From NCBI GenBank assembly GCA_004195025.1, contig SGBB01000001.1, positions 1-64,000 on the forward strand: a stretch of DNA of 64,000 nucleotides, written 5' to 3'. The position numbers and the translations under genes are program-made. Every line of letters begins with the position of its first letter. The first letter of the stretch is position 1. This stretch comes from Candidatus Acidulidesulfobacter diazotrophicus. GTDB lineage: Bacteria; SZUA-79; Acidulodesulfobacterales; Acidulodesulfobacteraceae. Of the stretch, positions 25,636 through 31,989 are shown one piece after another. The notes below the pieces were generated by a model. That model was not told where the DNA came from. It saw only the letters and a program-made list of their open reading frames with translations, and ran no database searches.

Positions 25636-27051
25636 TTAATTAAAAGGGCTCTTTAGTATATATATTTTATTATTCTTCAATTGAAAAAGATAAAGCCCCT
25701 TTATAAAATCTCTGCCGCGAATATGGCTAATACCGCATACTCCTTTAAAAGATTTAAATTTTAATAAACTGCGGTATAATAATTGTCTGTTATTATTAAT
25801 GCCGCCGTTAGCCTGTATGCTATTTTTTATGCTTTCATGAGCATTACTGCCGCCGTGCATCATAATCGACTTTATTACGATATTGCCCATATCATATCCT
25901 TCAGCCGACAATATGTTGGGTTTTTCATTATAATAATTCTTATAATATTTTACGAAATTTTTAACGAACTTATTCCTGCTGTCAGGGAAAAATCCGCCTG
26001 GGTAAACTATCCCATGCATATAAAAACTATATTTATTTAAAAACTTTTTATTATCTATCTGACTTAACCCAAAAAGTTTTATACCCGTAATATTGTAATA
26101 AGCAAGCTGAGTTAATATTAATTTTAATTTTCCGGTAGACCCGATTAAAAAAAGACCTTCAAAAGGGATATACGGTTTTGCTTTTGTAATACCATGCATG
26201 AGATCATAAGGAGTAACCCCTAATTGATTTTCCTCTGCTTTTGTCATATGCCCATGCCCCATATCTTGAAACCTTACGAGTAAATTAAAATTATAAAAAA
26301 AATCAACCGTATGCCTTTCGTAAGCAGTTTCGTCAACAATATTTATCCCTAATTTACTTCCCATAGCGTTTATATATTGAATTGTTTTTTGACCGTATGC
26401 ATTATCCGGATAAATAACCGATATTTTATCTATTCCTTTAGTTTCGGCATATTGTAAGTCTGCAGAAACTTCATTTTTTACCGTCATTCCGTAATGAAAT
26501 AAATACGGAGATTTATACTTTGAAAAATTTAAAGGGGCGGGAGTAAAAACAGGAATTTTATATATTGATGAATATTTTGAAAAATAAGCAATCTGATTAA
26601 CAAATAAAGGACCGATAATTGCGCTGATATTTTTTTTATCAATGCTTTTAAATAAATTTTTAATGAAACCTCTGCCGGCATTAAAAGGAAGACTTACGAC
26701 AATAAATTTTATATTCGCTTTTTTATTTTTTTGTATAGAAAAAAGAATTCCGTCTAAAAATTGTTTTCCGAAATATTTATACCGCCCGTTTGTAGGAACA
26801 ATAACAGCAATATTAACCGAATTATTTTTAATTTCCGGTTTTTTATTTTTATTATCTGCGTTTTTTATGCCTGTATTATTTGATAGACTTGCGCCATAGC
26901 CGTAGCATCCGCTAAAATTATTGAAACCTGAAATCAAGATTAAAAAACTGCTTACGGCTATAATAATAACTAAAAACAAAATGTTTTTATAATTATAATT
27001 GTCATAAATATCAAAAAAGCCGTATTTTAAATTACGATTAAAATCTTTCAT
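25636..27051 (-). CDS. Putative LpoA-like penicillin-binding protein activator (periplasmic binding-protein fold)
   Basis: A 471-residue protein with an N-terminal hydrophobic segment (about 24-44) ending SGFNNFSGC, a possible lipobox (the -3 position is Phe, not the usual Leu). The body resembles type I periplasmic binding proteins (NIAVIVPTNGRYKYFGKQFL at the start, then ISAIIGPLFVNQIAYFSK, then YPDNAYGQKTIQYINAMG). LpoA-type activators of PBP1A have this fold in their C-terminal domain. The adjacency to the PBP1A gene on the same strand supports that role, but a lone amino acid binding protein remains possible because no ABC transporter genes adjoin it. Confidence 0.6.
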   Translation of the reverse strand: MKDFNRNLKYGFFDIYDNYNYKNILFLVIIIAVSSFLILISGFNNFSGCYGYGASLSNNTGIKNADNKNKKPEIKNNSVNIAVIVPTNGRYKYFGKQFLDGILFSIQKNKKANIKFIVVSLPFNAGRGFIKNLFKSIDKKNISAIIGPLFVNQIAYFSKYSSIYKIPVFTPAPLNFSKYKSPYLFHYGMTVKNEVSADLQYAETKGIDKISVIYPDNAYGQKTIQYINAMGSKLGINIVDETAYERHTVDFFYNFNLLVRFQDMGHGHMTKAEENQLGVTPYDLMHGITKAKPYIPFEGLFLIGSTGKLKLILTQLAYYNITGIKLFGLSQIDNKKFLNKYSFYMHGIVYPGGFFPDSRNKFVKNFVKYYKNYYNEKPNILSAEGYDMGNIVIKSIMMHGGSNAHESIKNSIQANGGINNNRQLLYRSLLKFKSFKGVCGISHIRGRDFIKGLYLFQLKNNKIYILKSPFN

Positions 27052-27247: not shown

Positions 27248-28597
27248 ATGAAAAATCAATCAGTTCAAACAGGCGAAAATATTTATTTAGGTAATGATTT
27301 AATCAAACTGCTGTATTTTTATCACAGGATTTTCTTGCAATTTAAAAACATAAAGCAAAGCGCTGTGAAAAAAATATTTAGAAAAATTATTAAATTATAC
27401 ATAACCGATAATAATAGCAATAATAATTGCAATTATTATAGCGATATTGCGGAAATTTTGGAAAATATAGCATTAGAAACATATAAAGTTGATAAGAATA
27501 TTTTTGACAAATCTAAAAAAATTGCGGAAAACGAAAGTAATATCTTAGACAAATTCAATATTATACCTTTTTTGAATATTTATAACGATAGTCTGCCCAG
27601 TTTTCTTTATTATAATAATATTAATAAAAAAGAAGCCTTCGAAAAAGCCGCTGCTTTAGCCTGTAATATAAATCATATAAGTAAAAAAATAAATAATATA
27701 TACTCGAACAATGAATATTTTGATGGATATAATATGGGCAGCAATATAACAAATAACGATATAAATAACAATAATAAATTTATATTTATTACATCTTCAA
27801 GATATAAAGATGCCGGCATATTCAGATTAAATGACTATTTAAGTAACTGCTTGAGCGGGTATTCAATCAGCTGCAGCTTTAATAAATTTAACGAAAGTAT
27901 AAATACTTCATATTTTATAGGGACGGCAAGCGAATCAGAAAATAATTTGATAAAAAATTATGATAAAGTTTTCAAAGATAAAAATAAAATTATATTAGCG
28001 CCTCATTATCCTATGATTCATTTTTTAAAAAATTACTCCCAATACTCAGATTTTTCAGCTATTTCGGCAACAGATCCTTTTGAAACAAATTTTAAATATT
28101 GTTATATTTACAGGAACAATCTAATATTAAATATCTCATCGGAAATGATTGTGCTGTATTTATCAAAAAAAAGTTCATTAAATAATCTAATTAAAAAATT
28201 TGAAAATTTAAATAAAAATGTTAATATCATAGAAAAGTTTATTGAAAAAAATCAAATTGCCGACGACAATAATAATGCAGATACAATAAATATAAAAGAT
28301 GACGATGTAATAAATACCATCGATCCCGATATATATATAATAGACAAAAATGAAAATATAAATAAATTACAGTATATTGAAAAAGCAATATTAAGTTTTT
28401 TAGCTTATAATTATAAAAAAAACAACAATATCAATATAACTGCCGACGATATAATTAATAATCTAATAAAAATTGTTCAAAAAATAAATAAAAATGATAC
28501 GAATCAAATTAAAAAAATTATTCTTCAATCAATCTCTTTAATGGAAATTAAAGGGCTAATAAAAAGGGAAATTTCAGGGGTAATAAAAAAAATATGA
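27248..28597 (+). CDS. Highly divergent DprA/Smf-like protein
   Basis: DprA normally loads RecA onto incoming single-stranded DNA. The pieces of the family are present in order but worn: IIPFLNIYNDSLPSFLYY at about 105-122 (family: YPxxLxxIxDxPxxLyxxG), FIFITSSRYKDAG at 178-190 (family: AIVGxR), NKIILAPHYP at 246-255, YIYRNNLILNISSEM at 286-300 (family: FPxRNRIIaGLS), KKSSLNNLIKKFEN at 307-320, and a winged-helix-like end LMEIKGLIKREISG at 431-444. The SGxAxGID signature is absent; the equivalent reads SCSFNKFNES. Its TGA overlaps the topA ATG (ATGA), and dprA-topA is a conserved neighbour pair. The protein is Asn-rich and could be inactive in DNA processing. Confidence 0.7.
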   Translation: MKNQSVQTGENIYLGNDLIKLLYFYHRIFLQFKNIKQSAVKKIFRKIIKLYITDNNSNNNCNYYSDIAEILENIALETYKVDKNIFDKSKKIAENESNILDKFNIIPFLNIYNDSLPSFLYYNNINKKEAFEKAAALACNINHISKKINNIYSNNEYFDGYNMGSNITNNDINNNNKFIFITSSRYKDAGIFRLNDYLSNCLSGYSISCSFNKFNESINTSYFIGTASESENNLIKNYDKVFKDKNKIILAPHYPMIHFLKNYSQYSDFSAISATDPFETNFKYCYIYRNNLILNISSEMIVLYLSKKSSLNNLIKKFENLNKNVNIIEKFIEKNQIADDNNNADTINIKDDDVINTIDPDIYIIDKNENINKLQYIEKAILSFLAYNYKKNNNINITADDIINNLIKIVQKINKNDTNQIKKIILQSISLMEIKGLIKREISGVIKKI

Positions 28598-31062
28598 AAA
28601 ATTTAGTTATAGTAGAATCTCCGTCAAAAGCTAATACGATAAATAAATATCTCGGTAAAGACTATTCGGTAAAAGCTACGATGGGACATATAAAAGATTT
28701 GCCGAAAAGCAAAATAGGCGTTGATGTTAAACATGGATTTGAACCGTTTTACGAAATTATAAAAGGCAAAGAAAAAGTTACCGAAGAAATAAAAAAATAT
28801 GCTAAAACCGCCGATACCGTTTTTCTGGCGGCAGACCCCGATAGAGAAGGGGAAGCAATAGCATGGAACGTAAAAGAAATTATAGATACTATAAAAGGCA
28901 AAAAGCCTGAAGTAAAAAGAGTTCTTTTTAATGAGATAACAAAAGATGCTATTCAAGAAGCCATTAAAAACCCGATAGACCTTAATAAATATATGTTCGA
29001 ATCGCAAAAAACAAGAAGAATATTAGACAGATTAGTCGGTTATAATTTAAGTCCTTTTTTATGGAAAAAAGTCGGGAGAGGACTTTCTGCAGGAAGAGTT
29101 CAATCTGTTACATTATATTTAATAGTAGAAAGAGAAAAAGAAATTAATAATTTTGTAAAAGAAGAATATTGGACGCTGTCAGCCGATTTTTTAATTAAAA
29201 ACAATTCAGGAGATTCATTCACTATTACTTCGGAACTTGCGAAAATAAACAGGAAAGATCCTGTAATAAAAAATGCCTCCGAAGCTGAAAACATTAAAAC
29301 TTCATTATTAAATATAGCAGAATATAAAATTTATAATATCGGCAAAAAATCCGTTAAAAGAAATGCTCCGCCTCCTTTAATTACAAGCACATTACAACAA
29401 GAAGCTTTTAAAACAATCAGATTCTCAGTTAAAAAAACAATGAGCACCGCCCAAAAACTTTATGAAGGAATTGATTTAGGCAAGGTAGAGAATGCCGGCA
29501 GCGGTCCATTAGGTCTTACCGGTCTTATAACTTATATGAGAACGGATTCCATCAGAATATCCGATGTTGCCTCTAAAGCTGCAAAAGATTTTATTACTAA
29601 AGAATTCGGGGAAGATTTTGCCAAAAGCGGCACTGCAATTGTTTCAAAAAAACAAAAAACAAAAAAAATTCAAGATGCCCACGAAGCAATAAGACCATCA
29701 AATGTTTTTTTGACGCCCGAAAAGATAAAAAATTATTTATCTACGGATGAATACAGACTTTATAATTTAATATGGACATTTTTTGTTGCCTCACAAATGT
29801 CTCAAAGTATTTTTGACCAGTATAATATAACAATAAGCGGCAATGAGGGCATCGTCAAAAATAACATAGCCGAAAACACCGGCAAAACCGATAGCATTAA
29901 AAAAAATAAAAATAAAAAGGGAAATAAAACGGACGCAGATAATAATACAGAAAATATTGAAGAAAATGAGTATTTATTTAAAACTACCGAAAGCATTCTT
30001 AAATTTGAAGGATACTTAAAAGCTCTTAATAAATTATATGAACATCCAAAAGAAAAATCGGAACAGGATATTAATAGCAATTTAAATTTAAATGCAGACA
30101 ATAGCGAAAAAAATGTTAATGAAAGCAAAAATAAAGAAGATAATAAAAAAAATAAAGGATTGAACTCCAAATATATTTTAAAAATATTTGAAGTTTTAAA
30201 AGAAAATGACCCTGCTTTTATTCAAGATTTAGATCTTACGCAGCATTTTACTATGCCGCCTCCGAGATACACTGAGGCTACTCTTGTTAAAGCATTAGAT
30301 GAAAACGGCGTCGGCAGACCGTCTACTTATCAGACAATTATATCAAACATTAAAAATAAAGATTACGTTGAAATGGAAACGGAAACAAGCTCTATAGCCA
30401 GATTTAAACCTACTGAACTTGGAATTGCGGTATCCGATATTTTAAAAGAAGGATTTCCCGATATTTTAGATATTAAATTTACGGCAAATATGGAAAATAA
30501 ACTTGATGAAATAGAAAAAGGGACTTTAGATAAAAATACATTGCTTGGAGAATTTTACGATAAGCTTGTTGAAAGATTAGAAAGTGCAGGAAAAAATATT
30601 AAAGATATAAAAGGTACGTCTACACCTACCGATATAATTTGCGATAAATGCGGAAAACCTATGGTGATAAAATTCGGCAGATTCGGAAAATTTCTTGCCT
30701 GCAGCGGATATCCCGAATGTAAAAATACCAGAGAGCTTTCTTCAATTTCTGAAAATAATACGGCTAACTCCGGCGATGCGGTAAATCCGGAGCAGCAAAT
30801 AGTCGAATCTACTATAATTTGCGATAAATGCGGAAAACCTATGGTGCTTAAATCAGGCAGATTTGGAAAATTTCTTGCCTGCAGCGGATATCCTGAATGT
30901 AAAAATACAAAACCTATACCCCTGAAATCTAATATACCGTGCCCAAATGAATGCGGAGGCTATCTTGTTATAAAAAAAACAAAAAAGGGGAGAAAATTTT
31001 ACGGTTGTTCAAATTATCCAAAATGCGATTATATAACATGGACATTACCAAAATCTGAATAA
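28594..31062 (+). CDS. topA: DNA topoisomerase I
   Basis: Type IA topoisomerase that relaxes negative supercoils. The Toprim domain starts NLVIVESPSKANTINKYLG and has DPDREGEAIAWNV near residue 80. The active Tyr is in TYMRTDSIRIS at Tyr314. A low-complexity Lys/Asn/Asp-rich section (roughly 430-525) splits the later core. The C-terminus has three zinc-ribbon-like repeats: two nearly identical ones (CDKCGKPMVIK... and CDKCGKPMVLK..., each ending CSGYPECKN) and a third with CPNECGGY and CSNYPKC. The two copies also repeat at DNA level with a 180-base period (30633-30729 and 30813-30909), so duplication looks recent. It overlaps the divergent dprA by four bases. Confidence 0.96.
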   Translation: MKNLVIVESPSKANTINKYLGKDYSVKATMGHIKDLPKSKIGVDVKHGFEPFYEIIKGKEKVTEEIKKYAKTADTVFLAADPDREGEAIAWNVKEIIDTIKGKKPEVKRVLFNEITKDAIQEAIKNPIDLNKYMFESQKTRRILDRLVGYNLSPFLWKKVGRGLSAGRVQSVTLYLIVEREKEINNFVKEEYWTLSADFLIKNNSGDSFTITSELAKINRKDPVIKNASEAENIKTSLLNIAEYKIYNIGKKSVKRNAPPPLITSTLQQEAFKTIRFSVKKTMSTAQKLYEGIDLGKVENAGSGPLGLTGLITYMRTDSIRISDVASKAAKDFITKEFGEDFAKSGTAIVSKKQKTKKIQDAHEAIRPSNVFLTPEKIKNYLSTDEYRLYNLIWTFFVASQMSQSIFDQYNITISGNEGIVKNNIAENTGKTDSIKKNKNKKGNKTDADNNTENIEENEYLFKTTESILKFEGYLKALNKLYEHPKEKSEQDINSNLNLNADNSEKNVNESKNKEDNKKNKGLNSKYILKIFEVLKENDPAFIQDLDLTQHFTMPPPRYTEATLVKALDENGVGRPSTYQTIISNIKNKDYVEMETETSSIARFKPTELGIAVSDILKEGFPDILDIKFTANMENKLDEIEKGTLDKNTLLGEFYDKLVERLESAGKNIKDIKGTSTPTDIICDKCGKPMVIKFGRFGKFLACSGYPECKNTRELSSISENNTANSGDAVNPEQQIVESTIICDKCGKPMVLKSGRFGKFLACSGYPECKNTKPIPLKSNIPCPNECGGYLVIKKTKKGRKFYGCSNYPKCDYITWTLPKSE

Positions 31063-31167: not shown

Positions 31168-31989
31168 ATGTTTAGCCGGCTGAGGGACATTTCTATTAAA
31201 ACTAAAATCATCGTTCCTCTTATCGTATTAATTTTAATTCCTATTATTTTAATTTCTTACATTTCATTTAATCTTCAAAAACAGCTCACAATTTCTTTAA
31301 CTAAACATGATGCCGAAGTCACGGCTAAAACTGCTCTTTCTACTCTTAATACTATGATGCTCACCAAAACAATTCAACATACATCATATAGAAAAACATT
31401 AATAAAAATATACAAAAGGATAAAAGGAATAAAAGGTTTCCAAGTTATAAGGGGGAATCTTGTGAATGAACAATTTGGAGCTGGACTTAATGAGGAAAAG
31501 CCTGATTCTAATTTTGACAGAGCAATTCTTTCTTCAGGCGTTCCTATCACTAAAGAAATATATAAAAATGACCGTCCGACATATTTAATGGTCGGTATTC
31601 CTTTTGTAGCAAAAACTGATTCCAGAGGGATTAATTGTCTTGCTTGTCACACAAATGCGGTTAGCGGCAATGTTTTAGGCGGAATAAAAATAATTTATTC
31701 TTTAAAAACATTAAATACTGCCCAATCATATTTTATTAAATATTCAATAATCATAGCTTTAATTTCTATTATATTAATTATTATAATTCTTTATCTAATA
31801 ATAAAAAGCGCTATTATTAATCCTATTTTAAAATTATCAAAAGCTGCCGATAATATATCTAAAGGAAATTTTAATGAAGAAATCCCTTTTACTAGAAATG
31901 ATGAAATCGGAAAATTATCCGACTCATTTAGCAGAATGAAGATAAGTTTAAAAAAAGCTATAGAAATACTTAAAGGAAAGCAGCAATAA
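31168..31989 (+). CDS. Heme-c-binding periplasmic sensor with HAMP domain and no output domain
   Basis: A 273-residue inner-membrane protein. A first transmembrane helix lies near 13-33 (IIVPLIVLILIPIILISYIS), a periplasmic region spans about 34-190, and a second helix lies near 190-213. A HAMP domain follows (NPILKLSKAADNISKGNFNE near 217-236). The periplasmic region has one CLACH heme-c motif (Cys157, Cys160, His161), like the heme-binding sensor domains of some chemoreceptors and kinases (DUF3365/Tll0287-like). The protein stops after HAMP with a short coil, so there is no kinase, MCP or cyclase domain, and none follows on the strand. GGAGG precedes the ATG. It may be a partner for an output protein elsewhere, or a truncated gene. 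Confidence 0.82.
   Translation: MFSRLRDISIKTKIIVPLIVLILIPIILISYISFNLQKQLTISLTKHDAEVTAKTALSTLNTMMLTKTIQHTSYRKTLIKIYKRIKGIKGFQVIRGNLVNEQFGAGLNEEKPDSNFDRAILSSGVPITKEIYKNDRPTYLMVGIPFVAKTDSRGINCLACHTNAVSGNVLGGIKIIYSLKTLNTAQSYFIKYSIIIALISIILIIIILYLIIKSAIINPILKLSKAADNISKGNFNEEIPFTRNDEIGKLSDSFSRMKISLKKAIEILKGKQQ

Follow-up and report, generated by a model that had tools for sequence, protein, structure and literature searches.

DprA/Smf occurs in most bacteria, non-competent ones included. The reference proteins are represented by the families PF02481, PF17782 and TIGR00732 and by structures from S. pneumoniae (3uqz), R. palustris (3maj) and H. pylori (4ljk and 5mll). According to work cited in PMC9769556, DprA carries two signatures of single-stranded DNA (ssDNA) binding, motif 1 (G-S/T/A-R) and motif 2 (F/L/Y-x-x-R-N/D). 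In the D. radiodurans protein, residues H284 and L293 belong to the dimer contact and residues I287 and D277 to the RecA contact (PMC9769556). The genes dprA and topA are co-localised in 14 of 24 phyla (PMC5817196), a widely kept pair, as an earlier reading of the present DNA, made from its letters and hereafter called the sequence-only reading, had stated. DprA homologues also serve as antitoxins, in shosTA, syrTA and rqlHI (PMC9122126, PMC4670107).

The gene described here lies in the window, the whole stretch of 64,000 nucleotides that was analysed, with the following features.

27248..28597, + strand: diverged, topA-linked DprA-like protein of 449 aa (ORF, profile homology, AF2/Foldseek, relatives)
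27248..27616, + strand: N-terminal helical region and first strand pair, residues 1–123 (AF2)
27794..27802, + strand: equivalent of ssDNA motif 1, S-S-R, residues 183–185 (S183, S184 and R185 invariant in 26 of 26 proteins)
27920..27952, + strand: remnant of the SGxAxGIDxxAH loop, residues 225–235, GTxSEAExxFI in the topA-linked family (hhalign column matching)
28094..28117, + strand: K283 and ssDNA motif 2, Y-I-Y-R-N, residues 286–290 (R289 and N290 invariant)
28244..28363, + strand: Asn-rich linker of low confidence (pLDDT ~26–42), residues 333–372, at the place of the canonical GxNxLIxxGA block
28364..28594, + strand: C-terminal winged-helix domain, residues 373–449 (Pfam DprA_WH in relatives; AF2)
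28594..31062, + strand: topA, DNA topoisomerase I, overlapping the dprA-like stop (ORF beginning MKNLVIVESPSKANTINKYLG; same neighbour in relatives)

The frame opens with ATG, is intact throughout and stops inside the start codon of topA, giving the overlap of four bases (ATGA, 28594–28597) that had been read from the sequence. The landmarks named in the same reading are there: FITSSR at residues 180–185, the YPxxLxxI-like text (YPMIHFL) at 254–260, which the profile alignment places against the ‘GxGxxxxYPxxN’ region, and YIYRN, with the RN of the RNR motif, at 286–290, ahead of a real winged-helix end. Asparagine makes up 16.3% of the protein, the highest share among the 39 window ORFs of at least 200 aa (mean 7.5%, s.d. 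2.7%), and the gene has 22.7% G+C in a window of 30.5%. This asparagine excess, picked out earlier as well, is confined to one genus, whose seven members reach 13–17% and have longer linkers; other genera have 5.5–10%. In the window the gene is flanked by topA and by a divergent gene of periplasmic-binding-protein-like type, and neither is a phosphoribosyltransferase (PRTase). The divergent gene (25636–27051, − strand) matches Pfam Peripla_BP_6 and LppC (LpoA-like). Downstream of topA, 31168–31989 (+ strand) encodes a HAMP protein whose sensor part contains a haem-binding CxxCH motif (NCLACHT).

Searched alone, the window protein has no match in Pfam at E-values up to 10, none in PADLOC, ShosA and PsyrA included, and no relevant match among PDB sequences (phmmer); its NCBIfam matches are noise, and so are hits to NusB and eIF5. 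Because none of the annotation libraries used here recognises the gene, its identity as a DprA was tested via its relatives. The curated cut-offs of PF02481 and TIGR00732 are not passed: the window protein does not match either, and the best relatives reach 0.014 and 0.026. The Pfam winged-helix family DprA_WH (PF17782) matches 5 of 20 family members, with a best E-value of 2e-6. Against 12 aligned canonical DprA proteins, all taken from other genomes, the alignment of the topA-linked family gives a full-length colinear hhalign match (92.4%, 5e-7), and a second family alignment gives probabilities of 93–97%, the E-values overall spanning 5e-7 to 2.5e-10. The score is 58.1, against a maximum of 22.4 (local score) over 60 column- or block-shuffled controls. 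The topA-linked and ShosA-type families do not match each other in hhalign, probably because the ShosA-type alignment is shallow (Neff 1.8).

Predicted structures agree with the profiles. The AF2 models made for the window protein and for a compact 335-aa relative (pLDDT 68.8 and 75.4, respectively) both have DprA or ShosA as their top PDB matches in Foldseek, with probability 1.00 (3maj, 6.8e-7; 8zva, 4.1e-6; also 3uqz and 5mll), and ShosA 8zva is the best match for the window protein. The TM-scores of the best matches are modest (0.33–0.43 by query length), as low-confidence linkers and movement between domains would lead one to expect. The modelled N-terminal region (helices 16–30, 37–54, 63–78 and 83–102, pLDDT mostly >80) would lie where DprA has its SAM-like part, its own SAM identity being putative; the winged-helix domain comprises helices 374–391, 399–413 and 418–434 and two strands. 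The profile and structure searches proposed in the sequence-only reading thus yielded no confident non-DprA fold, and its assignment stands: the topA-linked protein is a true DprA homologue, over both the Rossmann core and the winged helix.

The family keeps some DprA motifs and has lost others. Motif 1 reads SSR in all 26 aligned topA-linked proteins, so that the arginine is invariant and the glycine of the canonical form is replaced. Motif 2, [FLY]xxRN, is intact in every one of them (as YIYRN in the window protein and as FALRN in the majority of other genera), and K283, the lysine three residues ahead of it, is kept in 24 of 26. The SGxAxGID loop is absent from the window protein and from the whole alignment (0/26, as is the looser pattern SGxxxGxD) but present in 12/12 canonical DprA proteins and 13/13 ShosA-type proteins of the same phylum. 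In the profile alignment, the family's GTxSEAExxFI falls on GIDxxAHxxAL, with only the second glycine (G225, invariant in 26/26) and mostly the alanine surviving. The loss of SGxAxGID, on which the sequence-only reading had placed its emphasis, is therefore real, but in the work cited in PMC9769556 the ssDNA-binding signature consists of motifs 1 and 2, of which motif 2 is intact and motif 1 keeps its arginine.

That reading also missed a second loss. The GxxxLIxxGA pattern that follows the last Rossmann strand in 10 of 12 canonical DprA proteins occurs in none of the 26 topA-linked ones; in the AF2 model of the window protein, the low-confidence Asn-rich linker takes the place of this GxNxLIxxGA block. 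The spacing between the arginines of motif 1 and motif 2 is 95 residues in both D. radiodurans DprA and locus L025, and by this equal spacing we infer that H284, L293, I287 and D277 would fall in or beside the lost block. Another segment might re-create the lost dimer block.

Of the phylum's 30 genomes, 26 have a relative, the remnant in one of them, G007, included; the 30 genomes all belong to one family and come from metagenome bins. Three of the four genomes without a relative have no topA match and the fourth only a distant one, so the locus is probably absent from these assemblies. Relatives adjoin topA in nearly the whole phylum, many with the same four-base overlap and several (the g4 genomes and G010) with gaps of ~30 to 190 bases. 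Three genomes (G023, G024 and G043) have the topA-linked gene in two copies on different contigs, probably because the bin mixes strains. Two conserved peptides derived from the family, scanned against 84,980 species genomes, gave 21 loci, all in genomes of the same phylum; more distant cases elsewhere could escape such a scan. At 15 unrelated dprA loci, topA lies within the short flank in two. Given the dprA–topA pairing across 14 of 24 phyla, the simplest history is that of an inherited dprA.

The topA-linked frame shows significant purifying selection, although its evolution is several times faster than that of the neighbouring genes. Within the genus, pairwise dN/dS is 0.27–0.53, below neutral, but higher than for a second DprA of the same genomes (0.05–0.12); for topA it is at most 0.13 (first 190 codons). 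In a spectrum-matched neutral simulation, in which the observed substitutions were re-placed at random, amino-acid changes amount to 0.60–0.78 of the neutral expectation in topA-linked pairs. In each of 11 comparisons of whole proteins, drawn from three genera, at most 1 of 1,000 simulations reaches the observed value; for four pairs, 0 of 2,000 do. Neutrality would place 3 to 8 stops in each close pair; none is seen. The Rossmann and winged-helix regions are each constrained in most pairs, and the linker is mostly unconstrained, near neutral. In G007, which belongs to another genus, the gene is a pseudogene remnant (L105, ~1140–1500) with fragments in different frames upstream of topA, one like GLSSEAEIKFI and one winged-helix-like. 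A gene similar to the divergent neighbour at window 25636–27051 (− strand) appears to be present at that place in G007 too. Purifying selection elsewhere together with the G007 remnant indicates a gene maintained in most of the lineage and dispensable in one branch. The divergence is not private decay, since relatives across the phylum have intact frames and amino-acid change is below neutral; the genus of G007 is the one with only a pseudogene. The choice offered in the sequence-only reading between a repurposed and a decaying DprA is not a clean one, given purifying selection in three genera, yet fast evolution and the G007 pseudogene.

Two properties of the lineage lay beyond the view of the sequence-only reading: it has no detectable ComEC, and it has a second, SGLAxGID-bearing DprA of ShosA type. 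A profile search for ComEC (PF03772) is negative in all 30 genomes of the phylum and positive in 10 of 14 control genomes. Matches to TIGR00361 in 27 of the 30 are not ComEC, being short, outside the channel part and at 16–27 bits, against a cut-off of 190. RecR is present in 30 of 30 genomes and RecO in 29, so other RecA mediators exist in the lineage. The second DprA is found in 29 of 30 genomes (19 of 19 good ones). The copy in the window's own genome (G000:C9:4741-5718) has GQR, SGLAxGID and LxARD and is without a winged helix; it matches PADLOC ShosA with 202 bits. The PRTase gene just upstream matches ShosT (6.4e-18), its relatives in 28 of 30 genomes have coordinates adjoining the second DprA, and pheT follows in most genomes. 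The full locus (L107, 1650–5721, on G000:C9), with equivalents in most genomes, comprises a divergent UvrD-like helicase, the ShosT-like PRTase, the ShosA-type DprA and pheT. It resembles a split RqlHI/PsyrTA, systems made up of a helicase-PRTase and a DprA, placed in the core genome rather than in a mobile defence island. The only SGxAxGID-bearing DprA found in the lineage is thus of the antitoxin type, at a fixed chromosomal place.

We put at somewhat better than even the chance that the topA-linked gene is a vertically inherited dprA that was freed from RecA loading, slimmed and left under weakened purifying selection with a minor DNA-binding role. The ancestral topA-linked dprA would have been passed on vertically in a phylum without detectable ComEC, and hence with no known route for transforming DNA, and would have been released from loading RecA onto such DNA as it came in. 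The SGxAxGID loop and the post-Rossmann block aligned with the DprA–DprA and DprA–RecA contacts could then have been lost, and the two ssDNA-contact motifs, the Rossmann core and the winged helix kept. The two losses fit a release from RecA loading, and the retained motif arginines and winged helix fit continued DNA binding. Judging by these conserved residues, the protein probably still binds DNA, perhaps alone, as a monomer, or with another partner. Its chromosomal role would be minor, useful and not essential, which would account for both the weakened purifying selection and the one loss. A more specific version, possible although we consider it doubtful, is that the ComEC-less lineage made the gene a DNA-binding accessory without the dimer and RecA surface, which might for instance serve topoisomerase I or ssDNA metabolism as a co-translated cofactor, and that the ShosA-type protein took over the SGxAxGID-dependent function. 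Evolution has here separated the parts of DprA, removing the RecA/dimer block and SGxAxGID but sparing the winged helix, the motifs that contact DNA and the place beside topA, and this separation makes the role of DprA beyond transformation testable.

The high dN/dS relative to neighbours and the G007 pseudogene also fit slow decay, the main rival to an inherited and slimmed dprA, in which a gene with no useful role left persists as a long-lived near-pseudogene with the genera at different stages. The near-neutral linker with its asparagine expansions points the same way, as does the frameshifted G007 remnant, reduced to loop-region and winged-helix pieces. We nevertheless regard slow decay as rather unlikely, because frames stay open down to ~30% identity across 26 genomes, the stops expected under neutrality are missing, the Rossmann and winged-helix regions are separately under purifying selection in most pairs and the invariant residues coincide with the DNA-contact motifs of DprA.

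A repurposed protein acting as partner or competitor of the ShosA-type DprA (antitoxin-like) or of its PRTase partner, so that two half-DprAs divide the former functions between them, is an improbable alternative. It draws on the complementary losses (the ShosA-type protein keeps SGxAxGID and has no winged helix, the topA-linked one the reverse), on the near-universal presence of both types in the phylum and on 8zva being the best PDB match of the window model; yet G007, with its dead topA-linked gene, still has the ShosA-type one, and the two families fail to match by profile. It is very improbable that translational coupling through the ATGA overlap keeps the frame and the protein itself is unimportant. 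The overlap recurs in many relatives, but coupling alone is disfavoured by the several relatives with a gap before topA; it would also leave R185, R289, N290 and the winged-helix core unpreserved, and G007 retains topA although the frame upstream of it is broken. An inherited dprA with a reduced role remains the reading we prefer.

Compared with the reference DprA/Smf proteins, the topA-linked protein shares the order of domains (N-terminal helices, Rossmann core, winged helix), the motif-1 arginine, motif 2 and the topA-side locus, and differs in lacking SGxAxGID and GxNxLIxxGA, in its SSR form of motif 1 and in scoring below the curated cut-offs. With the DprA-like antitoxins ShosA and RqlI (PsyrA) it shares the fold, as seen against the ShosA structure 8zva; proteins of that type adjoin a PRTase toxin, and the lineage's own copy keeps SGLAxGID, whereas the topA-linked gene has neither. 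The N. meningitidis DprA is reported with its functional residues conserved, unlike the protein described here (PMC5817196). With the dprA–topA operons, such as dprA-smg-topA of N. meningitidis and the fusion of M. xanthus (PMC5817196), the present locus has in common the co-localisation and a likely co-transcription.
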